DNA from: Methanomassiliicoccales archaeon
GTDB lineage: Archaea > Thermoplasmatota > Thermoplasmata > Methanomassiliicoccales > UBA472
Reading direction: 5' to 3'
NCBI GenBank assembly: GCA_028682915.1
Contig: JAJRAN010000036.1
Location: 1 to 34,254, forward strand
Length of the DNA stretch: 34,254 bases
In this document: one piece after another, positions 2,822 through 27,802 of the stretch
Layout: every line of letters starts with the position of its first letter
Numbering within the stretch: position 1 is the stretch's first letter
Made by a program: the position numbers and the translations under genes
The notes under the pieces: generated by a model
Told to the model about the DNA's origin: nothing
Seen by the model: only the letters and a program-made list of their open reading frames with translations
The model's database searches: none

Positions 2822-2920
2822 GAACGGCTGAATCTTGTTTGATGGTAGAGCCTGATTTTAAAAAAGTTGGGGTACAACATCTTCGATGGATCTATGCCCT
2901 CTTTCTCTTACCAATGATAG

Positions 2921-2929
2921 TTTTTATAT
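2921..2929 (+). promoter_or_regulatory. TATA box for the M6-like metalloprotease
   Basis: TTTTTATAT predicts a transcript start near 2950, 14 bases before the ATG at 2964. This box lies inside the reading frame if the more upstream ATG at 2886 were used, which argues for the shorter protein. Confidence 0.5.
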
Positions 2930-2963
2930 CCGAACGGTCAAGTACTATTTTGGGGAAGCAGGA

Positions 2964-5798
2964 ATGAGCAATAAGGTGAAGGTCAGTCCTCAGCCAATTG
3001 ATGAAGTAGGTTCTAAGGTACCCATATCAAGACGCTCTGATAGAGTAAGAATCAATCTACCTGACGAAATGGTTGCTGGGTCGCATATAAAGATAGCTCT
3101 TTATAATTCGGGCAACAGCAGGATCTCTCCCAGCGATTTCACTCTTAAATTCGTCGGAGATGCAGGTGGCTGTGAGATATCCAAGGCTTTAGAAACGACA
3201 AAAAAAGGCAAGGAGCTCATCATCCTACTCATCGCCGGTTCTGTACCTGGAGAGAGAATACTCCAAGTAACCTTGAAGCGAGCCCCTAGTAGACCTTTTA
3301 AATTCACATTCAAGGTGATCCGCCACAGGTCCAACTCACCTGAGGGGGCGGGTTTCAACGTTCAAGGTTTGGATCCGGCCCACCGGCCAAAGATCCCCTC
3401 ATTCGCAGGCATTAGCCCCCAGTCTGAAGGCTACCCAGGAGGAGGGGGAGCTCAGAATGTACTGAATTTTGGTATAATCAGGATCGGTTGGGATTATGGG
3501 GGCTACTCCCATCCTTTCGAATCCGACAAGGACTGGACTGCTCTGTTCGGAGGAGTAGGAGGGACGGGAAGTGGGGGTAGGAACGTCAAAACCTACTACG
3601 AAGAGATGCAGAACTCCTTCACCATACAATGCCAAGAGATCGGAACGTACCAAATGGAAGTGAACTGGAACGATTGCTTCTGGCTCGGGGCAAGTTATCA
3701 CTGGTTCCCGAACGAAAATCTCCTGGATCACATCTTCGATATGGCCAAAGGCGACATCGAGACATTGGGAGAAGAGTTCGTCAAGAGTCTGCACGGCCTC
3801 TTCATCGTGGTCATGCCTAGCCCGCACAATCAGGCGGTTTGGCCATGCTGCTTCGGGCCAAGGAACGTAAAAGTCGCTTATTCTGAAGGTTCCCCAGAGA
3901 TTTCGAAATATATCTATGGCATCTTCGTTTCAGAGGATATCGACGAGCCTGGAACCGCGACCTACGTACCTGATTATGACCTGGTCGAGAGAGCCGCACA
4001 TGAAATCGGCCATACGTTGGGCATGCAGGACCTTCGGATGACCACGTCCCCAGGGGGCGGATCAGCGCCTTTGAACCCGATCAACGATTGGGACCTTATG
4101 TGCGATGAGAAGTTGCTCCCCCAGATTGCCTTGGCGAATCGAGTCCATCATTCTTTAATTCCTGACACCCGGCTCTACGGGCACTCTATCTACCATCCCA
4201 ATCAGGGCGTTGTCCAATCATCTGGTCAGGGATCGAACCGTCCTGTCGCAAGCTACCGAGGTAAGCGCGGCCTAACATTCGTTCCAGAAGGAGATGTTCA
4301 AGCCTCGGAGGCTAGCCTAGAACCTCTGGAGACGGTAGCGAGCGTCGGCCCTAGCGGGTTAGAGATAGTCATCACGGAAGGATGGAGCCTTTTCTTCGAG
4401 TTTAGGAAAAGGCAGAGCGGCCAAATCAGTGACCAACATCTTGATAGAATCGCTCATGTCCAATCCAGCGCAGAGCAGGCCCTCATAGGCATGCAGAGCA
4501 AGCTTTGGGGCAAATTTGCACCATACAGGCAGGTCGAAATGTTACCGCATTTCCATGATGGTCTGCCTTTCTTCACGTCAATTAATCTCAACGAATCGTT
4601 TGAGGACATCGTGGTCAAGACCCTTGAGACCAGTCCAGTTGGAGATATTCAATCGGAGAGGAAGTTGGGATTGAGCGTTAAGTTCGTGGGCATCGAGAAT
4701 GGTTGCGCAAAAGTCGCCATACGAACCGTCCAACCACCAGAAAAGAAGGTCGATCCCTGCATCCATCCATGGAAGGGCTACGATGAATGGATTAGCCCGG
4801 ACATCAGGGTAGAGAACGATCCTGGCACTGACAACATAGTCCCAGGCCTCATGAACACCATCAAGCTGACGGTCTGGAACGCTGGCAATGACATATTGAG
4901 TGGCATAAGCGTCGACCTTTTCGCGATGGACATGGCGCTGGGCCACCCATGGGACATCTGGGACACCACGCCCATAGGCACCGTGAGAATGGGAGCGGGG
5001 GATCCACCGATAGCTCCGGGCGGGTCCCAGGAATTCTCGTTCGACTATCTCGCCCCAGAAAAGAATGAAGTCTCCGATGATGAGGAACGGAGCGATATCA
5101 AGTGCGGGACCATCATCGCCGCAAAGATCAGGGAGCTGAGCGGCGAGATCACTCGGGAAAATAATTTCGCACAATCACGTTTCATCTCCCTGACCGCGAT
5201 TAAGGAGTCGCTTGAGGAGTACTCCCGCGAGGTCACTGGGTTCGAGGTCACCAATCCTTACGATAGACCTGTGCAGATCTTCATCACCGCCAGACAGACA
5301 AGCCCGAACTACCGGATCCTGTTGGACAAGTCATGGCTCCGTCTTGGGCCTAATGAAACCAAGACCTTCGTAGCGCACTTCGAGTACAGACCTCAAGGAA
5401 GAGCGGTGAGCACCAGCGATGATGTGAATTGGGTCACAATCGAGTCCTTTGTCAGGGACCCTCTCGATGCCGATGGGCATCTTAAGCCTCTGTCTGGAAT
5501 CAATGTCAAGGTCTCCAATGCAATTTCGACTTCCATGAGGTTGAGCATTAACCGGACGACGCTCAGAGCGGAGGTCAAGGACTACAAGGGTAAATTGTTG
5601 AAGTCAGGGAAATTGATATTTTTGGTGGGCAGAGGCAAACCGCTTGATTCGAAGAAAATGAGATTCGAGGTCAATGTCAAGGAGAGAATAGGTGAGAATA
5701 TCGAGATCGAGCTTCCGAGAGGTTGGCAAAATATCAAGGCTTATTTCATTCCTCCTGCTGGATACGCAAGATGTGAATCCACCTTGGCTCACAAATAG
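2964..5798 (+). CDS. M6-like zinc metalloprotease, large multidomain protein
   Basis: A 944-residue protein centred on HEIGHTLGMQD at residues 346-356, which matches the zinc-binding HExxHxxGxxD pattern of immune-inhibitor-A-like (M6) peptidases. Upstream, NVKTYYEEMQNSF resembles the M6 'SVxDYYxE' segment, and downstream NDWDLMCDE resembles the M6 'WDLM' segment. About 110 N-terminal residues look like an immunoglobulin-like beta domain. Residues about 605-700 look like a CARDB adhesion-type domain, followed by further beta-rich sequence. No signal peptide or membrane segment is visible at MSNKVKVSPQP, which is unusual for M6 enzymes, normally secreted. The start is the ATG at 2964; one at 2886 would precede the TATA box. 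The 5' part is more AT-rich than neighbouring genes. Protease function is inferred from motifs; substrate unknown. Confidence 0.75.
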   Translation: MSNKVKVSPQPIDEVGSKVPISRRSDRVRINLPDEMVAGSHIKIALYNSGNSRISPSDFTLKFVGDAGGCEISKALETTKKGKELIILLIAGSVPGERILQVTLKRAPSRPFKFTFKVIRHRSNSPEGAGFNVQGLDPAHRPKIPSFAGISPQSEGYPGGGGAQNVLNFGIIRIGWDYGGYSHPFESDKDWTALFGGVGGTGSGGRNVKTYYEEMQNSFTIQCQEIGTYQMEVNWNDCFWLGASYHWFPNENLLDHIFDMAKGDIETLGEEFVKSLHGLFIVVMPSPHNQAVWPCCFGPRNVKVAYSEGSPEISKYIYGIFVSEDIDEPGTATYVPDYDLVERAAHEIGHTLGMQDLRMTTSPGGGSAPLNPINDWDLMCDEKLLPQIALANRVHHSLIPDTRLYGHSIYHPNQGVVQSSGQGSNRPVASYRGKRGLTFVPEGDVQASEASLEPLETVASVGPSGLEIVITEGWSLFFEFRKRQSGQISDQHLDRIAHVQSSAEQALIGMQSKLWGKFAPYRQVEMLPHFHDGLPFFTSINLNESFEDIVVKTLETSPVGDIQSERKLGLSVKFVGIENGCAKVAIRTVQPPEKKVDPCIHPWKGYDEWISPDIRVENDPGTDNIVPGLMNTIKLTVWNAGNDILSGISVDLFAMDMALGHPWDIWDTTPIGTVRMGAGDPPIAPGGSQEFSFDYLAPEKNEVSDDEERSDIKCGTIIAAKIRELSGEITRENNFAQSRFISLTAIKESLEEYSREVTGFEVTNPYDRPVQIFITARQTSPNYRILLDKSWLRLGPNETKTFVAHFEYRPQGRAVSTSDDVNWVTIESFVRDPLDADGHLKPLSGINVKVSNAISTSMRLSINRTTLRAEVKDYKGKLLKSGKLIFLVGRGKPLDSKKMRFEVNVKERIGENIEIELPRGWQNIKAYFIPPAGYARCESTLAHK

Positions 5799-15726: not shown

Positions 15727-16836
15727 TCAGGCCTCGATAAGGGGCTCTAGGAACTCCACCAGGTCCATTATCTGCACCTTGCTCCCGCAGCTGCTCCCTC
15801 CCACCCTCAGGTTGTTCACGCAGAATGGGCACGTGGTCACCAGGACCTCGGCGAAGGACGCCTCCTCTACCCGCCTCGCCGCGATCTTCTCCGACAGATC
15901 AGGATAAGCGGAGCGGACACCCCCGCCCCCTCCGCAGCACCGAGCCGTGTCCTTGCTCCTAGGCATCTCCCTGAACTCGGCGTCGGGGACCCGGGCCAGG
16001 AGCTTCCTGGGTGCTTCGTAGACACCGCAGTGCCGCCCGAGATGGCACGGGTCGTGGTATGTCACCTTCTTGCGCAGCGGCGAGAGCTTGATGTCCCTCT
16101 CCGCTAGGAACTCGGAGATATGCTTGACTTTGAAGTCGACCTTGACGTGGCGGGGGTATTCCTCCTTGAACATGCGATAGCAACCGGCGCAGGAGAACAC
16201 CACCTCGTCCTTACCAGCTGAGGCGATCGCCTCCACGTTGCGCTCCATCAATTCCTTGACCTCTTCCTCGTCCACCCCGATGCGCTGCAGAACGCTGCCG
16301 CAGCAGACCTCGTCCACGATGGAGAACTCCTCGCCCAGCTTGTCCAGGATTGACGCGGTGGCCTTGGCGATGCTGGGATTGCGATAGGCGGCGGTGCAGC
16401 CGGCGAAATAGCCCAGCTCCCCTCCTCCCCCGCCAAGCCTCAGGGCGTCCTGTACGCGCTTCGCCTCCCCATAGGGGTTGCCATGGGCCGCGACGCTGGC
16501 CACAAGCCTCGCGTGCCTGGGAAGCATCTTGCCGCTGGCCACCAGGTCGCGGCGCGCCCGCTCCACCACGTCCACCACCTCGATGCCCGAGGGACAGCGG
16601 CGCTCGCAGTCCTTGCAGGTGGTGCATTGATAGAGGTGCTCGACGACGCTCTCGTCAGCGGGGATATCCTTCCGGAGGAGGCCATAGGAAAGGATTATGC
16701 GCCCCCTGGCCACGCTCGGGTCCCAGCCTATGCCCTCATAGGTGGGACAGACCGATTTGCAGAAGCCGCAGTAGGTGCAGGTCATCATCGTGCCCTGCGC
16801 GGCTCGAAGGTTCTTGGCCTCGATGTAATCCGCCAT
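15727..16836 (-). CDS. HdrD/GlpC-like Fe-S oxidoreductase subunit
   Basis: A 369-residue protein. Two [4Fe-4S] ferredoxin motifs lie at C20/C23/C26/C30 and C71/C74/C77/C81. Two CCG domains follow: YFAGCTAAY with DEVCCGSVLQ, and HDPCHLGRHCG with ARCCGGGGG and TTCPFCVNNL. This is the layout of heterodisulfide reductase subunit D and of lactate or glycerol-3-phosphate dehydrogenase Fe-S subunits. It starts three bases after the LarA-like gene and ends one base before folP, so the three are surely co-transcribed. Pairing with a LarA-like enzyme suggests 2-hydroxyacid oxidation, but no flavin subunit of the GlcD/LldE type is present. True heterodisulfide reductase is the alternative. Confidence 0.85.
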   Translation of the reverse strand: MADYIEAKNLRAAQGTMMTCTYCGFCKSVCPTYEGIGWDPSVARGRIILSYGLLRKDIPADESVVEHLYQCTTCKDCERRCPSGIEVVDVVERARRDLVASGKMLPRHARLVASVAAHGNPYGEAKRVQDALRLGGGGGELGYFAGCTAAYRNPSIAKATASILDKLGEEFSIVDEVCCGSVLQRIGVDEEEVKELMERNVEAIASAGKDEVVFSCAGCYRMFKEEYPRHVKVDFKVKHISEFLAERDIKLSPLRKKVTYHDPCHLGRHCGVYEAPRKLLARVPDAEFREMPRSKDTARCCGGGGGVRSAYPDLSEKIAARRVEEASFAEVLVTTCPFCVNNLRVGGSSCGSKVQIMDLVEFLEPLIEA

Positions 16837-16839
16837 GGC

Positions 16840-18075
16840 TCAGCTCACCTTCGGCACCACCACGCTTCCCTCGTATATGACGATGACGCTGGCCTCGGGG
16901 TCCCTGGCCAAGGCATCGTCCAAGGCGGCCTGGGCGCTGGCATAGGGATGGATGTTGATCTGCTCCAGGTCCGTGGGGTCCAACGAGGTCACGCCGCAGA
17001 TGCGGGAGCGCTTGGCAATCTCCGCCATCCTGACCGCCTTGTGGTCGCCCAGCCTGTACTCGGTCTCCATGTCCCTTTGGGCTTTCGTCGGGTCTCCCAT
17101 GGATTTCAGCGCCTCGTAGAACGGGCCCTCGCCTATCCCGTGCCGGCATTTCGACACCAGGATGAGAGTGCCCCCGTCGTTCAATGCGTACTTCGCGTTC
17201 TCCATGGCCTTCTGCGATTGGTAGAGGTCGACGTCCATGGGGTAGGGGGCGATGGTGATTACTACGTCCGCCTTGCGCTTGATCGGGACCACGTACACCT
17301 TGTTGGCCCAGCGCACGGCCCTCTCGAAGGAGGCGTGCAGCTCTCCCACCGCGACCTTGTGGACCATCTGGTTGCGGTCCAGGACCACCTGGATGCCGAC
17401 GATCCTCTTCCCCTTGAGCTCCTTGGCGCAGTCCACCATGTCCTCGTGCACCGGGTTGCCCTCCAGGGCCAGAACCTTGGACCCGGGCTTCATGGCCAGG
17501 CTATGGTTGTCCTCGATGGTGCTGTAGGCGCACACCCCTGGCAGTATGGACTTCCTCCCTCCGGTGTAGCCAGCGAAGTAATGGGGCTCCACGCTGGTGA
17601 TGATGAGGATGCGGTCGAACCTCTTCACCATCTCGTTCACCCAGATCTCGGTCCCGTGCCTCGACCTGCCCAAGTACTCGGTCTTGGAGCGGTGGGAATC
17701 GTGGACGTGGACCCTCGGTCTGAGGCGACCGAGCATCTTTCCGAAGATGAGGCTGAACTCTTCCTCGGTAGGCGCCCGATGCGCCCCCGTGGCGACGAGG
17801 AACTGCGCTTTTTCCAGGTCCACGCGCTTGTCCAACTCCTGAAGGACGGTCGCAGTGGGAGTGGGCCTCGTCCCGTCGTTGACGATGACCAGCACCTCCC
17901 CCTCGAAGAGGGACTCGACCGATTCCCCTCCAAGCGGTCGGTCAAGCCCCTGGTTGATCGCCTTGGCGTCCTCGTCGAAGCTGACGTCGTTGGGCCTGAC
18001 CACTTGGATGAGATTTCTCTTAGGCACCTCCAAGTGCTGGACCTCCTCCTTCCCGAATGGTATTTCAAGCCTCAT
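16840..18075 (-). CDS. larA: Lactate racemase-like (LarA family) nickel-pincer enzyme
   Basis: A 411-residue DUF2088/LarA-type protein. Known LarA active-site residues align by position: D67 and R70 in NDGTRPTP, H99 in TGAHR, H165 in EPHYFAGY, K175 in TGGRKSILPG (the lysine that holds the nickel-pincer nucleotide) and H191 in DNHSLA. Their spacing matches Lactobacillus LarA. A racemase or epimerase acting on a 2-hydroxyacid is therefore likely; the exact substrate is open, as the family is broad. The cofactor makers LarB, LarC and LarE are not in this window. It is the first gene of the unit with the HdrD-like gene and folP. Confidence 0.82.
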   Translation of the reverse strand: MRLEIPFGKEEVQHLEVPKRNLIQVVRPNDVSFDEDAKAINQGLDRPLGGESVESLFEGEVLVIVNDGTRPTPTATVLQELDKRVDLEKAQFLVATGAHRAPTEEEFSLIFGKMLGRLRPRVHVHDSHRSKTEYLGRSRHGTEIWVNEMVKRFDRILIITSVEPHYFAGYTGGRKSILPGVCAYSTIEDNHSLAMKPGSKVLALEGNPVHEDMVDCAKELKGKRIVGIQVVLDRNQMVHKVAVGELHASFERAVRWANKVYVVPIKRKADVVITIAPYPMDVDLYQSQKAMENAKYALNDGGTLILVSKCRHGIGEGPFYEALKSMGDPTKAQRDMETEYRLGDHKAVRMAEIAKRSRICGVTSLDPTDLEQINIHPYASAQAALDDALARDPEASVIVIYEGSVVVPKVS

Positions 18076-18128
18076 GAACGGGCGGAACGAAGGCGGGCGG
18101 CAATAATCAATCTTTCTTTATTGACGGG

Positions 18129-18135
18129 ATATTTA
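18129..18135. promoter_or_regulatory. AT-rich promoter candidate between larA-like gene and thiL
   Basis: ATATTTA reads TAAATAT on the minus strand. Leftward it would start transcription near 18104 (leader about 29 bases to the LarA-like gene), and rightward near 18158 before thiL. It is the only clear TATA-like site in this 115-base divergent gap. Confidence 0.35.
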
Positions 18136-18190
18136 GGTGCGCAAGTTGGCGGAAGCAAAGTAAAAGGAGCGGTCGAGCATACATGGAGCG

Positions 18191-19159
18191 ATGAGCCGCC
18201 TGAGCGAGATGGGTGAGAAGGAGGCTGTCCGCCGAATCCAGAATCTGATCGCTGATCGAGGTGCCTCCAGCAACATCGGTCCGGGTGATGACGCCGCGGC
18301 AGTAGACCTGGGGGTGATCTATCTCGTGGCCACCACGGACATCATGGCGCAGAGCACTCACATCCTCCCGGGCATGAGCTATTGGCAAGTGGGATGGAGC
18401 CTGGCCGCCATCAACTACAGCGATGTGGCCGCCATGGGGGCAAAACCCATCGGCCTACTGGTATCGATGGGGTTGCCCCGCGACTTCGAATCCAACGATC
18501 TGGATGAGGTCTTCCGAGGCATCCTCGACTGCTGCGAGTTCGCCGGGGGGGAACTCCTGGGTGGGGATACCAAGGAGACCAAGGAAATCACCTTGGCCGG
18601 CTCAGCCCTGGGCACCGTGGGAAAGCGCGAAATACTGCTGCGACGCGGGGCGTCGCCGGGAGACCTTCTCTGCGTCACCGGCAGCGTGGGATTGGCCGCG
18701 GCTGGGTATCATTCGCTGGCCAATAGGCTCTCGTTCAAGGCGGCCGAGAAGGCCATCCTCGAGCCATCCCCGAAGGTGAGGGAGGGCATGCTCCTCTCCG
18801 CCTCCGGCGCGGTCACCTCATGCATGGACGTCTCTGACGGACTGTCATCCTCCGTGCATACCCTGTCTGGAATGAGCCGGGTCTCTTTCTCCCTCGATTT
18901 CGACGAGATCCCGGTAGAGGACGAGGTGCTGGAGGTGGCCGAGGCCCTGGACCTGGACCCCATCGAGCTGGCCCTTTACTACGGAGGCGACTATCAGCTC
19001 CTCTTCACCGTCAGACCCAAAGGCTTGGACAGGCTGCGGGATGCGCTGGGGAACGACTTCTCGGTCATCGGCGAGGCCAAAGCCCCTGGTGAGAACGTAT
19101 TAGTAAGGGGGAGCGAAATAATCAGGCTCGAGAACCGAGGCTATGAGCACTTCCGATGA
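18191..19159 (+). CDS. thiL: Thiamine-monophosphate kinase
   Basis: A 322-residue member of the PurM/ThiL ATP-binding superfamily. IGPGDDAA at 29-36, TTDIMAQSTHI, NYSDVAAMGAKP, GGDTKET and CMDVSDGLSSS are all family signatures, as is GGDYQLLFTV near the end. It phosphorylates thiamine monophosphate to the active diphosphate. Length is normal. The ATG at 18191 sits close behind GGAG; no in-frame alternative is better. The 3' end overlaps the radical SAM gene by 17 bases, so the two are translationally linked. Confidence 0.92.
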   Translation: MSRLSEMGEKEAVRRIQNLIADRGASSNIGPGDDAAAVDLGVIYLVATTDIMAQSTHILPGMSYWQVGWSLAAINYSDVAAMGAKPIGLLVSMGLPRDFESNDLDEVFRGILDCCEFAGGELLGGDTKETKEITLAGSALGTVGKREILLRRGASPGDLLCVTGSVGLAAAGYHSLANRLSFKAAEKAILEPSPKVREGMLLSASGAVTSCMDVSDGLSSSVHTLSGMSRVSFSLDFDEIPVEDEVLEVAEALDLDPIELALYYGGDYQLLFTVRPKGLDRLRDALGNDFSVIGEAKAPGENVLVRGSEIIRLENRGYEHFR

Positions 19160-22981: not shown

Positions 22982-24421
22982 TTGGTGGTTCGAAGGCAGG
23001 GTGACACCGAGGGGACCGATAAGCGCTGGAAGGAATACCATTCCCTATGGCTCCTGCTCTTCCTCTCCTGGACCCTCCTCTACATCGACCGGGCCATAAC
23101 CGGGCCCGTCGTTGCTTGGATGATCGACAACGATGCGGGTTTCATGGCCGAAGCTCGATTCCCGTTCGCCTTGGGCGGGATCATCGGCTCCATGTTCTTC
23201 GCCGGCTACATGCTCACCCAATTCCCCTCCGGATATCTTGGGGACCGGCTCGGGCATAGGGCGATGATCGTTCTAAGTCTGCTTTGGTCGGGGATCGCCA
23301 CATTGGCAAGTGGTATGACCAAGAGCCTTACAGGCTTCGTCGCTCTCAGGGTCTTGACCGGCTTGGGCGAGGGAGCCTATTATTCGAACGACCGCGCGGT
23401 CGTCTGCGAGACCACTCCGGAAGGGGAACGGTCATTAGGCCTTGGGTTGGTCTTCACCGGTCTGGCGCTGGGCATGACCCTGGCCTTTGCGCTCACGCCC
23501 ACCATGCTCGACATGGGGGAGGATTGGTTAGGGGCCGAGGTGGCCTGGACCCTTCCCTTCCTGGCCTTCTCTGTTCCCACTTTCCTCCTTGGGATAATCC
23601 TCTGGCGGCGCTTCGGTGTGCCCAAAGGGGTGCTGGGAAAGGCGGGGTTGAAGCTCGCTGTCTGGTCGTCCTGCTTCCTCGTGGCTCTGATGCTTGTTTA
23701 CCTGGCCACCGTGCATCTCGGCTTCGGTCTATTGTTCCAGGCTTCTGCCGTGCTCTTGGTCACATTGATCCTTATCGCCATTATCTACCGAAGGCTGGGA
23801 GGGACGAGCCAGGCGCTGCGGGACCGTCGCCTGGTCATCCTTTATGTCTCGGCCATACCTCTCCTCTACACCCTATGGTTCTTCGGCTTCTGGGCCCTCA
23901 TGGTCGTATCCGAGTCGTCCGACCTTGGCATCTCCGCGGCGGCTATGTACGCTGCACTGTTCGGTCTGGCCAATGGAATTGGATATCCGCTCGGAGGCAG
24001 GCTGGGGGACGCCGTGGGGAGGGAACACAGGCCAAGATTGTACGTGATGCTGTGCGCAGGCGTCGCTGTATCGGTGCTCGCCATAGCCTTCCTGGTCCTT
24101 TCCAAGACGAGCTCCCTCGAGCTCGGCATGGCGCTCTTCATCATGGGGGTGTTCTTCGCCTCTGCCCAGACCGTGCATATGACCATCGCTGCCGACATGT
24201 CTCCACCAGGACAGAGGGGACAGACCTTCGGGATGTGGAACCTGGTCGCCGAGATAGGTGCGGTCTTGGCCCCAGTGCTCTCGGGAGTATTGAGGGACAT
24301 GACCGGGAACTGGACCCTCGCGATCCTCCTGGACGCATCATTGCTGGCCATAAGCGCGGCTTTGGTCTCCTACCTGTGGTTCGACGATAGGCGAAGTGCG
24401 CGCCCCTGCCACCGACAATGA
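22982..24421 (+). CDS. Major facilitator superfamily transporter
   Basis: A 479-residue protein with about 12 hydrophobic segments in two halves and a longer central loop. GYLGDRLGHRA between helices 2 and 3 matches MFS motif A, and RVLTGLGEGAYYSNDRAV matches the helix 4-5 region of organic anion or sugar-phosphate type carriers. GYPLGGRLGDAVGREHR is the second-half copy of motif A. The substrate cannot be told. The start is a TTG at 22982 with GGAGG eight bases upstream; a GTG follows directly as the next codon. AT-rich sites near 22884-22901 may be its promoter. The end is near the phosphoesterase promoter. Confidence 0.82.
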   Translation: MVVRRQGDTEGTDKRWKEYHSLWLLLFLSWTLLYIDRAITGPVVAWMIDNDAGFMAEARFPFALGGIIGSMFFAGYMLTQFPSGYLGDRLGHRAMIVLSLLWSGIATLASGMTKSLTGFVALRVLTGLGEGAYYSNDRAVVCETTPEGERSLGLGLVFTGLALGMTLAFALTPTMLDMGEDWLGAEVAWTLPFLAFSVPTFLLGIILWRRFGVPKGVLGKAGLKLAVWSSCFLVALMLVYLATVHLGFGLLFQASAVLLVTLILIAIIYRRLGGTSQALRDRRLVILYVSAIPLLYTLWFFGFWALMVVSESSDLGISAAAMYAALFGLANGIGYPLGGRLGDAVGREHRPRLYVMLCAGVAVSVLAIAFLVLSKTSSLELGMALFIMGVFFASAQTVHMTIAADMSPPGQRGQTFGMWNLVAEIGAVLAPVLSGVLRDMTGNWTLAILLDASLLAISAALVSYLWFDDRRSARPCHRQ

Positions 24422-24429
24422 TTTAATTG
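24421..24429 (+). promoter_or_regulatory. TATA box of the phosphoesterase (leaderless)
   Basis: ATTTAATTG is centred 25 bases before the ATG at 24450, at the end of the MFS gene. This spacing supports a leaderless start at 24450 rather than the in-frame GTG at 24396. Confidence 0.45.
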
Positions 24430-24449
24430 AGGATACCGTGGGAATCACG

Positions 24450-25196
24450 ATGCTCGTTTGCGCCATGGGGGACGTGCACGGCGATCAATACCTGGACCTG
24501 CTGAAAGAGGGCCGAGATAAGTTGGGAGCATGCGACCTCGTCCTATTAGCTGGGGACGTCACCGATACCAACGACCTGGAGATATACGGTCAGGTGCTCG
24601 GCACCCTGAGGGAGCTGACCGATGCGGAGATCCTGGCGGTTTTCGGAAACGAGGAGTATGATTCCTCCCACTTAGAGTACAGGGAGAGGTTCCGCATCGT
24701 CTTTCTGGAGGAGGAGTCCAAGGACCTGCGGTTCGATGACCTCAAGGTCAAGGTGGTAGGTACCACGGGTTCATTGGACCGGCCCACCTGGTGGCAGCGC
24801 ACCAACGTGCCTGACATCTGGGTAAGATATAAGGAGAGGCTGAGCAAGACCTCCTCCTTGCTAGAGAAGGGCGACGCCGACGTCATGGTGCTGCTCATGC
24901 ATTATGCGCCAACCTATGCCACGTTGGAAGGGGAGAAGCCATCGTCGTTCCCGGAGATGGGGTCCCTGGCCTTCGAGGGCCTGGTCCTGGAACGAAGGCC
25001 GGACCTGGCGCTGCACGCCCATGCCCACAGGGGAAGGAGGAAGGCGGCCCTGGTCAAAAGGCAGCGGAGCCTCGAGGACTATTCCGCCAAAGGCTCCGAG
25101 GTGATGGTCCACAACGTCTCCCTTCCCGTGGTCGGGCGGCCAACCTTCTTCGAGATAAAGGGGGAGGAGAGCGGTGTCTCCGTCCGCGAGTTGTAG
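24450..25196 (+). CDS. Calcineurin-like metallophosphoesterase (archaeal Icc-related type)
   Basis: A 248-residue protein with the phosphoesterase metal motifs in order: D8 and H10 in GDVHGD, D36 in AGDVTD, GNEEYD at 66-71, H151 in MHYAPTY, and HAHAH at 189-193. The usual GNH(D/E) motif has Glu in place of His, which should affect the general-acid residue; the rest of the di-metal site is intact. The substrate is unknown, and phosphodiester or nucleotide hydrolysis is the family role. Its end overlaps the next gene by 23 bases, so it is translationally linked to the EndoV fusion. The GTG at 24396 inside the MFS gene is an alternative start. Confidence 0.8.
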   Translation: MLVCAMGDVHGDQYLDLLKEGRDKLGACDLVLLAGDVTDTNDLEIYGQVLGTLRELTDAEILAVFGNEEYDSSHLEYRERFRIVFLEEESKDLRFDDLKVKVVGTTGSLDRPTWWQRTNVPDIWVRYKERLSKTSSLLEKGDADVMVLLMHYAPTYATLEGEKPSSFPEMGSLAFEGLVLERRPDLALHAHAHRGRRKAALVKRQRSLEDYSAKGSEVMVHNVSLPVVGRPTFFEIKGEESGVSVREL

Positions 25197-26139
25197 CGAG
25201 GACGTGGATCTGATCGGCCTGATCTTCGAGGCCGTGGGCCAGATTCCAGAAGGGAAGGTCAGTACCTATGGGGATATAGCCAAGGCCATGGGGGACGTCA
25301 GAGCGGCAAAGGCGGTGGCCCAGGTCCTATGGGATGTGGATTGCCAGGAGGTGCCGAGGCATCGAGTGGTCTCCGCTGACGGAACCCTCGGCAGCTGTGT
25401 TGCGATATCCGTCTCAGAGGTGACGAGGCGGCTGATGGAGGAAGGCGTGTTCATACATAATGGGAGGATCGCCAGCCTGGAGGCGACCAGATTCGCCGAC
25501 TTTCACATCCCATCGGTCCTTCGGCAGCTACAGGCGGAGCAGGAGGCTCTGCGGCTCTCGGTGGTGGATTCGGACGATTTTCCGAGGCCGGCATGCGTCT
25601 CAGGGCTCGATGCCTCTTATACCAAGGATTGGGGGTGCGTTGCATTGGTGCGCATGGACCTGGAGAGCCTGGAGGTGGTGGAGGCCAGGAGCGCGGTTGG
25701 CCGGGTGCGGTTCCCCTACATAACCGGATACCTGGCATACAGGGAGCTCCCTCTCATCCGTAAGGTCTTCAGTGACCGAGACGGCGACATCCTTCTAATC
25801 GATGGCCATGGTATCCTTCATCCCAGGGGGTTCGGGGTCGCCTCCCAGGTCGGGGTGTGCTTGGACGTCGCCACCATCGGGGCGGCCAAGAGCCACCTCG
25901 TCGGGGCGATAGAAGGTGATGGGCCGAAGGCCAAGGTGATGGTCGATGGTGAGCTGAAGGGGATAAGGCTCAGTCCCAAGGGAGGGAAAGGGATTTTCGT
26001 CTCGGTGGGACATCGCATCTCATTGACGACCGCCTGCGCCTTATGCGAGCGCCTTATGATCGGAAGGATCCCGGAGCCGCTGCGATTGGCGCATGTCCTG
26101 GCCACAAGAAGGCGGAAGGAATTGGAGATAGAGCCATGA
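25174..26139 (+). CDS. Alkyltransferase-like domain fused to endonuclease V
   Basis: A 321-residue two-domain DNA repair protein. Residues 10-100 form an O6-alkylguanine transferase DNA-binding domain (EGKVSTYGDIAKAMG, RAAKAVAQVLW), but the active site reads PRHRVV at 61-66 instead of PCHRVV, so the alkyl-acceptor cysteine is Arg62. Residues 112-321 are endonuclease V: D146 in SGLDASY, E191 in GYLAYRELP, D210 in LLIDGHGILHPRGFG and K239 in IGAAKSHL. EndoV nicks near deaminated bases such as inosine. A similar fusion with an active transferase is known from Ferroplasma. The GTG at 25174 has the strong site GGGGGAGGAG and overlaps the phosphoesterase end. The N-domain probably only senses alkylated guanine. 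Confidence 0.88.
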   Translation: MSPSASCSEDVDLIGLIFEAVGQIPEGKVSTYGDIAKAMGDVRAAKAVAQVLWDVDCQEVPRHRVVSADGTLGSCVAISVSEVTRRLMEEGVFIHNGRIASLEATRFADFHIPSVLRQLQAEQEALRLSVVDSDDFPRPACVSGLDASYTKDWGCVALVRMDLESLEVVEARSAVGRVRFPYITGYLAYRELPLIRKVFSDRDGDILLIDGHGILHPRGFGVASQVGVCLDVATIGAAKSHLVGAIEGDGPKAKVMVDGELKGIRLSPKGGKGIFVSVGHRISLTTACALCERLMIGRIPEPLRLAHVLATRRRKELEIEP

Positions 26140-27035
26140 GGATCGTCGTGTTCGGCGCTGGATCGCTGGGAAGCCTGGTGGGAGGATTGCTCACCCGGAG
26201 GAACGAGGTCACCCTGATCGGCCGACAGCCGCATGTCCAGGCGATCGAGGAGAGCGGGCTGGTGATCGCGGGCATGGTGGAGGCGGTGGTGGTCCCGAGG
26301 GCGGCGGAGGACATCCGAGGCCTGCCCCCGGCGGACCTGGTCCTGGTCACGGTAAAATCCTATGACACCCAGGAGGCGCTGGAGGCCATAAGACCTCTGG
26401 TATCCGATTCCACCCTGGTGGTCTCGCTCCAGAATGGGCTGAACAACGCGGGGCTCGTCACCAGGGCCTTCCCCGGAAGGGCGGTGATCGGCGTTACCTC
26501 CCTGGGAGCGACCAAGTCCGGGCCAGGTAGGGTGTTCTATGCGGGCGAGGGCGACACCTATTTCGGCACCGTCCAGGGCGATCCCGAGGATGCTGCGAGA
26601 GTGGCCGAAACCTTCAATTCCGTGGGGTTGGACTCCTACGTAACCGACGACATCATGGCCGAGGTCTGGGCCAAGGCTATCATCAATGCCGCGGTCAACC
26701 CCCTCACCGCGATCGCCCGCTGTAAGAACGGGGGCATATTGAAGGACGAGAGCCTCAAGCGGCTGGCGGAGCTGGCTTGTCTAGAGGGCGAGAGGGTGGC
26801 CAAGGCCAATGGAATCGAGCTGGGGGCCGAGCCCATGTTCGAGCGCACCAAGCTTGTCCTCCGCCGGACCTCAGAGAACAAGTCCAGCATGCTCCAGGAT
26901 GTGGAGAGGAGGAAGAGGACCGAGGTCGATGAGATCTCCGGTGAGATTGTACGCCGGGCTTTGGCTTCTGGGGTGGAAGCACCTGTCAATCATACGTTAT
27001 GGCTTCTGGTCCGTTCCATAACCAATTTCAGCTGA
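26136..27035 (+). CDS. panE: 2-dehydropantoate 2-reductase
   Basis: A 299-residue ketopantoate reductase. The NADP-binding GAGSLGS is at 7-13. The segment VKSYDT, SLQNGLNN at about 97-104 and the catalytic region WAKAIINAAVNPLTA (K180, N184, N188) are all as in PanE. It makes pantoate for coenzyme A. The open frame continues upstream within the EndoV gene, but the ATG at 26136 overlaps the preceding stop in ATGA and begins directly at the Rossmann strand MRIVVFG, so it is the start. It is the last gene of the run phosphoesterase-EndoV fusion-panE. Confidence 0.9.
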   Translation: MRIVVFGAGSLGSLVGGLLTRRNEVTLIGRQPHVQAIEESGLVIAGMVEAVVVPRAAEDIRGLPPADLVLVTVKSYDTQEALEAIRPLVSDSTLVVSLQNGLNNAGLVTRAFPGRAVIGVTSLGATKSGPGRVFYAGEGDTYFGTVQGDPEDAARVAETFNSVGLDSYVTDDIMAEVWAKAIINAAVNPLTAIARCKNGGILKDESLKRLAELACLEGERVAKANGIELGAEPMFERTKLVLRRTSENKSSMLQDVERRKRTEVDEISGEIVRRALASGVEAPVNHTLWLLVRSITNFS

Positions 27036-27121
27036 GCCCAGCGATGCTTCGGCCCATGACCGCAAGGTCGCATGGTGGTCCGAAGCCTTGTGATGGTGGA
27101 TGGTCCAGCTGGAACGGAAAC

Positions 27122-27130
27122 CTTAATTAT
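27122..27130 (+). promoter_or_regulatory. TATA box of the GfcR-like gene
   Basis: CTTAATTAT predicts a start near 27152, nine bases before the ATG at 27161, so a near-leaderless message. The rest of the 125-base gap after panE shows nothing else. Confidence 0.45.
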
Positions 27131-27160
27131 GATGCCTCCTGATGTTCAAGCGGTGGTCCG

Positions 27161-27802
27161 ATGGTAGATGTGAAGGACTTGGCGAAGAAGGCACGAGAGT
27201 ACAAGGAGCGGGGCCTGAACGAGAGGGAGATCGGCGACGAGCTGCATGTATCCGTGGACACAGTCAGGTACCTTTTAGAAGAGGGGATGGACGGGACCCT
27301 TCCGCCAAGCGACATCAAGATCGGCTGGAGGAGCATCGGCGTCTACGGTGCCAGGATCGCCATGATGAGCGAGATCCTGTCCGACCTGATCGTTGAGGAG
27401 ATGGAGCAGCGCGATCTGGACGTCGAAGTAGTCTTGGGTATCGCCGTCAACGGGGTCTCCTTCGCCACCTATATCTCGGACATGCTCGATTCCGAGCTGG
27501 CCATCTACAAGCCTCCGGTCGAGCGCGGGAAGGCGGGGGGCTCGATCAGCGGCAACTATGCCTCCGTCGAGGGGAAGAAGGTGGTCATCGTCGATGACGT
27601 GATGTCCACTGGAGCCACCGCGCAGGAGGCGATCAAGGACGTCCGCGCCGCGGGCGGCACGCCCGTACTGATGGTCGTAATAGTGAACAAGAGCAGCCAG
27701 AACGAGGTCGATGGCGTCCCTCTCAGGGGAATCATCCGGGCCAGGTCCATGGGCGGCACCATTCTGGGGCATGGTCCGTTGCGCTCCTTCCCCTACAAAT
27801 AG
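27161..27802 (+). CDS. gfcR: HTH-phosphoribosyltransferase regulator, GfcR-like
   Basis: A 213-residue protein. Residues 1-45 form a helix-turn-helix (LNEREIGDELHVSVDTVRYLLEEG). The rest is a type I phosphoribosyltransferase fold with the PRPP-binding signature VVIVDDVMSTGAT at 141-153. Archaeal proteins of this build are annotated as orotate phosphoribosyltransferase-like, and in haloarchaea GfcR controls sugar catabolism genes. Here it probably senses a phosphorylated metabolite; the targets are unknown. The ATG at 27161 opens right after the promoter. The small gene downstream follows after three bases and is in the same transcript. Confidence 0.85.
   Translation: MVDVKDLAKKAREYKERGLNEREIGDELHVSVDTVRYLLEEGMDGTLPPSDIKIGWRSIGVYGARIAMMSEILSDLIVEEMEQRDLDVEVVLGIAVNGVSFATYISDMLDSELAIYKPPVERGKAGGSISGNYASVEGKKVVIVDDVMSTGATAQEAIKDVRAAGGTPVLMVVIVNKSSQNEVDGVPLRGIIRARSMGGTILGHGPLRSFPYK

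Follow-up and report, generated by a model that had tools for sequence, protein, structure and literature searches.

An archaeal endonuclease V fused to an alkyltransferase domain without its acceptor cysteine, and the probable retention of that domain as a DNA-binding arm

Why would a repair protein keep an alkyltransferase (AGT) domain that has lost the cysteine on which alkyl transfer depends? The question is raised by a gene in the window, the whole 34,254-nucleotide stretch of DNA analysed here, which belongs to a Methanomassiliicoccales-type archaeon, phylum Thermoplasmatota (a 1.84 Mb draft genome, 148 contigs, 93.7% complete). Within a single open frame, the gene encodes an AGT domain (residues 17-92) N-terminal to an endonuclease V (EndoV) domain (residues 126-307), and the frame and both Pfam matches confirm the initial annotation's reading of it as an AGT-EndoV fusion without an acceptor cysteine (Table 1). 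It shares its first 23 bp with the end of the gene upstream, and its GTG start is preceded by a GGAGGAG-like ribosome-binding stretch. A bifunctional AGT-EndoV protein from Ferroplasma acidarmanus was described by Kanugula et al. 2005, as related in PMC10779285 and PMC3489907, and an archaeal fusion of EndoV to an alkyltransferase-like (ATL) domain by Tubbs et al. 2009, as related in PMC10779285. The F. acidarmanus protein comes from the same phylum and has the same layout, with EndoV behind an AGT domain of the C-terminal type; the closest relatives of the window's protein retain PCHR at the active site.

Table 1. Positions in the window of the fusion gene, its domains and the residues discussed in the text
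Feature	Position	Strand	Details
AGT-EndoV fusion gene	25174..26139	+	GTG start, 321 aa; ORF, Pfam domains, syntenic orthologues across the order
AGT DNA-binding domain, Cys-less	25222..25449	+	PF01035, residues 17-92, E 8e-15, above cut-off
Tyr32, equivalent of the base-flipping Tyr (human Y114, Atl1 Y25), kept	25267..25269	+	
Lys46 at the arginine-finger position (human R128, Atl1 R39)	25309..25311	+	
PRHR replacing PCHR, Pro61-Arg62-His63-Arg64	25354..25365	+	codons CCG AGG CAT CGA
Arg62 at the acceptor-Cys position	25357-25359	+	codon AGG
Lost substrate loop region, residues 73-79, G-S-C-V-A-I-S	25390..25410	+	alignment column counts
Endonuclease V domain, catalytic residues intact	25549..26094	+	PF04493, residues 126-307, E 1e-47
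Thr184 in the strand-separating wedge, PYIP to PYIT	25723..25725	+	

The fusion lies in a cluster of overlapping genes (24396-27802) that runs phosphoesterase, AGT-EndoV, ketopantoate reductase, phosphoribosyltransferase, an order conserved across much of the host order. Elsewhere in the window, two long open reading frames (2886-5798 and 16483-18216; 970 and 577 aa) have no Pfam match at E 1e-8. Two queries found no viral relatives of the fusion, and a role in a defence system was rejected after PADLOC gave no hit.

We begin with the AGT half. The active site reads PRHR at residues 61-64, codon for codon as first annotated, and the replacement of the acceptor Cys by Arg62 bears out the accompanying claim that the domain cannot take up an alkyl group by the normal route. 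The pocket is lost as well: Cys-bearing fusions have G-W-Y-x-G where the window has GSCVAIS, so that no substrate loop of either the WYxG or the GGYSG type is found. The helix-turn-helix fold and the base-flipping Tyr are kept, as seen in the PF01035 match, Tyr32 and an AlphaFold2 model of residues 10-111 (pLDDT 87.6) that retains the AGT/ATL fold; a model of the full protein (pLDDT 52 with 7 sequences) was left out of the evidence. The arginine finger is present in 33/33 Cys-bearing and 9/10 Cys-less fusions of the order and is exchanged, conservatively, for Lys46 in the window, which also has Ala49 in place of Gly. The window's protein is the most eroded in the order, and its AGT-domain branch (1.0-1.4, compared with 0.61 for EndoV) is the longest in the Cys-less set. 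Given Lys46, Ala49 and this long branch, the domain's own binding to DNA could be weak. Lacking the Cys and the substrate loop and having a Lys finger, the protein differs from that of F. acidarmanus and is not expected to transfer alkyl groups; as judged from its sequence, it does not combine both activities of the bifunctional type, alkyl transfer being excluded by the loss of the Cys.

The EndoV half presents the opposite picture. Alignment to Thermotoga maritima EndoV places Asp146, Tyr182, Glu191, Asp210, His216, Lys239 and His307 at D43, Y80, E89, D110, H116, K139 and H214, and the catalytic set (Asp43, Glu89, Asp110, His214 and Lys139 in T. maritima) is thus complete in the window (D146, E191, D210, H307 and K239), in agreement with the initial annotation. 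The domain is predicted to be active, like the Nfi-type enzymes (T. maritima 2w35, E. coli 4xpu) whose catalytic set it shares whole, with 103 bits to the T. maritima protein; it differs from them in the AGT-derived domain at its N-terminus and in the PYIT wedge. There, Tyr182 is kept and the second Pro has become Thr184, a change that the initial annotation passed over. No second Thr occurs at this place in the 165 aligned fusion rows, though Ser does in 25 of them. No other EndoV was found in the host genome.

How common is the loss of the Cys? The fusion is present in most of the 61 near genomes that we examined, and we widened the census by a phylum-wide draw of 390 genomes, from which the fusions were fetched and aligned. 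At the PCHR position, where the initial annotation had proposed such an alignment, 137 of the 164 fusions in Thermoplasmatota have the Cys and 27 do not, and across the whole set the catalytic residues of EndoV hardly vary. Among the 27, the acceptor position is occupied by T, S, R, W, L, V, G, K, A or I, the motif being deleted in four; the three species of the window's genus alone have R (the window), W and G. On a tree built from EndoV only, the Cys state changes at least 11 times, of which well-supported branches force only 3. The best tree for the order requires 3 changes and makes the genus a single loss (support 72), and grouping all of the order's Cys-less fusions into one clade is rejected (AU test, p 0.0006). 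These counts were taken on unrooted trees with weak support in places, and the changes are read as losses since the Cys is the general AGT state. Cys-bearing and Cys-less fusions share the same syntenic place, between the phosphoesterase gene and those for ketopantoate reductase and phosphoribosyltransferase, which indicates that the Cys was lost in place. From the alignment and trees together, we infer that the same loss has occurred repeatedly among the relatives of the window's protein.

The Cys-bearing fusions vary too. Their motif is PCHR in 59 of the 137, PCYK or PCYR in another 59, and has Phe after the Cys in 18 (15 of them PCFK), with variants for example in L079, L103, L127 and L163, and Asp often replaces the Glu of the triad. 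Most Cys-bearing fusions thus have another residue in place of the catalytic His; since these are usually their genome's only strong AGT, the PCYK, PCYR and PCFK variants may be active through another proton relay.

We now turn to the genomes' other AGTs. The host genome encodes a separate 112-aa PCHR protein on another contig (L002, 1483-1821, G000:C124), and, in its genus, this AGT (L002, and L221 in G001) is short and comprises the C-terminal domain only. It clusters with the AGT domain of a fusion from a distant lineage, L168, away from its own genus's fusion locus. This placement suggests that the genus gained its separate AGT horizontally and leaves its origin by fission of the fusion locus unsupported. 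Using PF01035 searches, and with genomes at least 80% complete as the main comparison, a separate AGT was found beside 19/19 Cys-less fusions and beside 27/117 Cys-bearing ones (Fisher 5e-11), or 19/19 and 40/117 when weak hits are counted too (p 2e-8), counts that carry the caveat that metagenome-assembled genomes can miss genes. The four genomes with a Cys-less fusion and no strong second AGT are just 54-79% complete. In a two-trait maximum-likelihood model on the tree, with absence in less complete genomes treated as unknown, the rate of Cys loss is near zero where there is no second AGT (LR 28.1, p 1e-7); when only well-supported branches are counted, there are too few pairs to reach significance. 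PCHR is found in the separate AGTs recovered from Cys-less genomes, except in G051, whose copy is divided between two contig ends, leaving the Cys position unseen. The second AGT could also be a consequence of the Cys loss instead of its cause. Our literature search, which was partial and does not prove absence, found no report of recurrent Cys loss or of its link to a second AGT.

Has the fusion's domain become an ATL? The initial annotation proposed that it finds O6-alkylguanine or bulky lesions in the manner of an ATL while EndoV nicks, and it called this a repair path not seen in either family alone. On such a reading, the domain would flip the base out and leave it unrepaired, and EndoV would nick close by to set repair going, a one-protein ATL route. 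The novelty was overstated, as archaeal ATL-EndoV fusions, which likewise join a Cys-less AGT fold to EndoV, had already been reported according to the account in PMC10779285, where an XPG-like role for EndoV is proposed as well; both points lend the route some plausibility. So does structure. Like S. pombe Atl1 and V. parahaemolyticus ATL, the domain is an AGT fold without an acceptor Cys; its best PDB sequence match is Atl1 (42.8 bits; best AGT, 21.8), and its model is nearest Atl1 in fold (TM 0.82, compared with about 0.6-0.72 for AGTs). A Cys-bearing sister matches AGT best, another Cys-less fusion domain is likewise nearest Atl1 in the PDB, and the Tyr is kept, as is the Arg finger in most relatives. 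However, the resemblance to Atl1 is partly trivial, because ATLs also have neither the N-terminal domain nor the AGT-type loop.

A check residue by residue weighs against a lesion finder. Among the five Atl1 lesion-binding and flipping residues (Y25, R39, P50, W56 and R69), the window is identical only at Tyr32; it has Lys46, Cys57 and Arg62 at the next three, and Val or Cys, depending on the alignment, in place of R69. Most ATLs have Trp where the window has Arg62. The acceptor position holds any of ten residues across the phylum, and R, G and W inside one genus, which is what a site with no job would show. A pairwise score marks only one protein, L147 (PWHR), clearly as an ATL. A search for UvrA, the partner to which ATLs pass lesions for nucleotide excision repair in the known route, found none in the 93.7% complete host genome or in any of the 10 Cys-less genomes of the order, and a PCHR AGT is present to handle O6-alkylguanine. 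The domain also differs from ATLs in its origin, a Cys-bearing fusion at the same locus. The residue check and the pairwise score led us to reject an assignment to ATL from the best PDB hit and to class the domain as an eroded AGT domain, ATL-like in its missing Cys and loop. We consider a sensor coupled to a nickase rather unlikely for the window's protein. L147 itself (G266:C39:15796-16947) is an EndoV fusion with PIPWHRVI, a genuine ATL motif, in a genome elsewhere in the phylum that has a full-length UvrA, and likely represents the ATL-EndoV fusion known from earlier work. That Thermoplasmatota have repeatedly turned AGT-EndoV proteins into nickases of alkyl or bulky lesions, each time alongside a second AGT, with the Cys-less domain flipping alkylated bases and EndoV making the cut in a UvrA-free, one-protein incision pathway, seems to us improbable.

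If not lesion finding, what keeps the domain in the protein? In the order's Cys-less domains, the Cys is found in 0/10, the W-Y-G loop in 0-1/10 and the Lys at window position 83 in 0/10, and Gln23 is often lost too. In contrast, the helix-turn-helix positions G33, A36, G40, D41, A44 and V48 are kept in 10/10, as is the motif's His-Arg. The ratio of AGT to EndoV tip lengths rises from 0.58 with the Cys to 1.57 without it (per-tip test, p 1e-4), and from 0.59 to 1.29 when the Cys and loop columns are removed. In five close Cys-less pairs, the AGT-domain dN/dS is 0.19-0.29, each significantly below 1, compared with 0.02-0.12 in Cys-bearing pairs, and EndoV is alike in both groups. The Cys-less domain is thus, by these ratios, relaxed yet under purifying selection, in close pairs from other genera of the phylum; the window's own relatives, at 47-51% identity, are too distant for the comparison. 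Because the domain is under selection in Cys-less relatives, it probably has a use, and by extension from those genera the window's own domain is presumably still under purifying selection.

That use could be purely structural, the domain having no useful binding to DNA and being kept for the folding, stability or dimer contacts of EndoV. The faster evolution once the Cys is lost, the Lys at the window's arginine finger and a stepwise erosion down to stubs in some lineages all agree with such a remnant. In L177, L180, L181 and L184, little more than the beginning of the helix-turn-helix remains, in a short stub from which the active-site motif is deleted, so the domain is not always needed; all four genomes have a separate AGT. 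Even so, the best-kept parts of Cys-less proteins include the DNA-facing helix-turn-helix positions and the arginine finger, the domain's dN/dS is well below 1, and many EndoVs fold alone, and we judge a structural remnant unlikely. That the reads or the assembly are in error, or that the gene is a pseudogene in decay, is hardly credible even in a fragmented draft of 148 contigs at 93.7% completeness: a change from Cys (TGC/TGT) to AGG takes at least two bases and both other genomes of the genus lack the Cys, so a single read error is insufficient, and the substrate loop is also gone, the frame is open, EndoV is conserved and species of another family are likewise Cys-less.

We think it probable that the window's protein is an EndoV whose former alkyltransferase domain serves as a DNA-binding arm, alkyl transfer having passed to the second AGT. 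Its ancestors would have been bifunctional AGT-EndoV proteins. Once a second, separate AGT was present, selection on the fusion's alkyl-acceptor pocket would have ended, and the fusion would then have lost the Cys along with the substrate loop and Asn-hinge region. Selection would have continued on the helix-turn-helix, the part predicted to grip the minor groove. The arm probably helps EndoV to hold or scan DNA as it nicks beside deaminated bases, and alkyl repair would now be done by the second AGT.

Among sufficiently complete genomes, these fusions form a natural series in which a repair domain loses its chemistry yet persists, and does so only where a backup gene exists. The series makes it possible to separate the AGT domain's probable service to EndoV, the gripping of DNA, from its own alkyl transfer, and it bears on how alkyltransferases give rise to ATL-type proteins. 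For annotation it is a warning: not every protein of these archaea that bears the name 'methylated-DNA-cysteine methyltransferase/EndoV' is an alkyltransferase.
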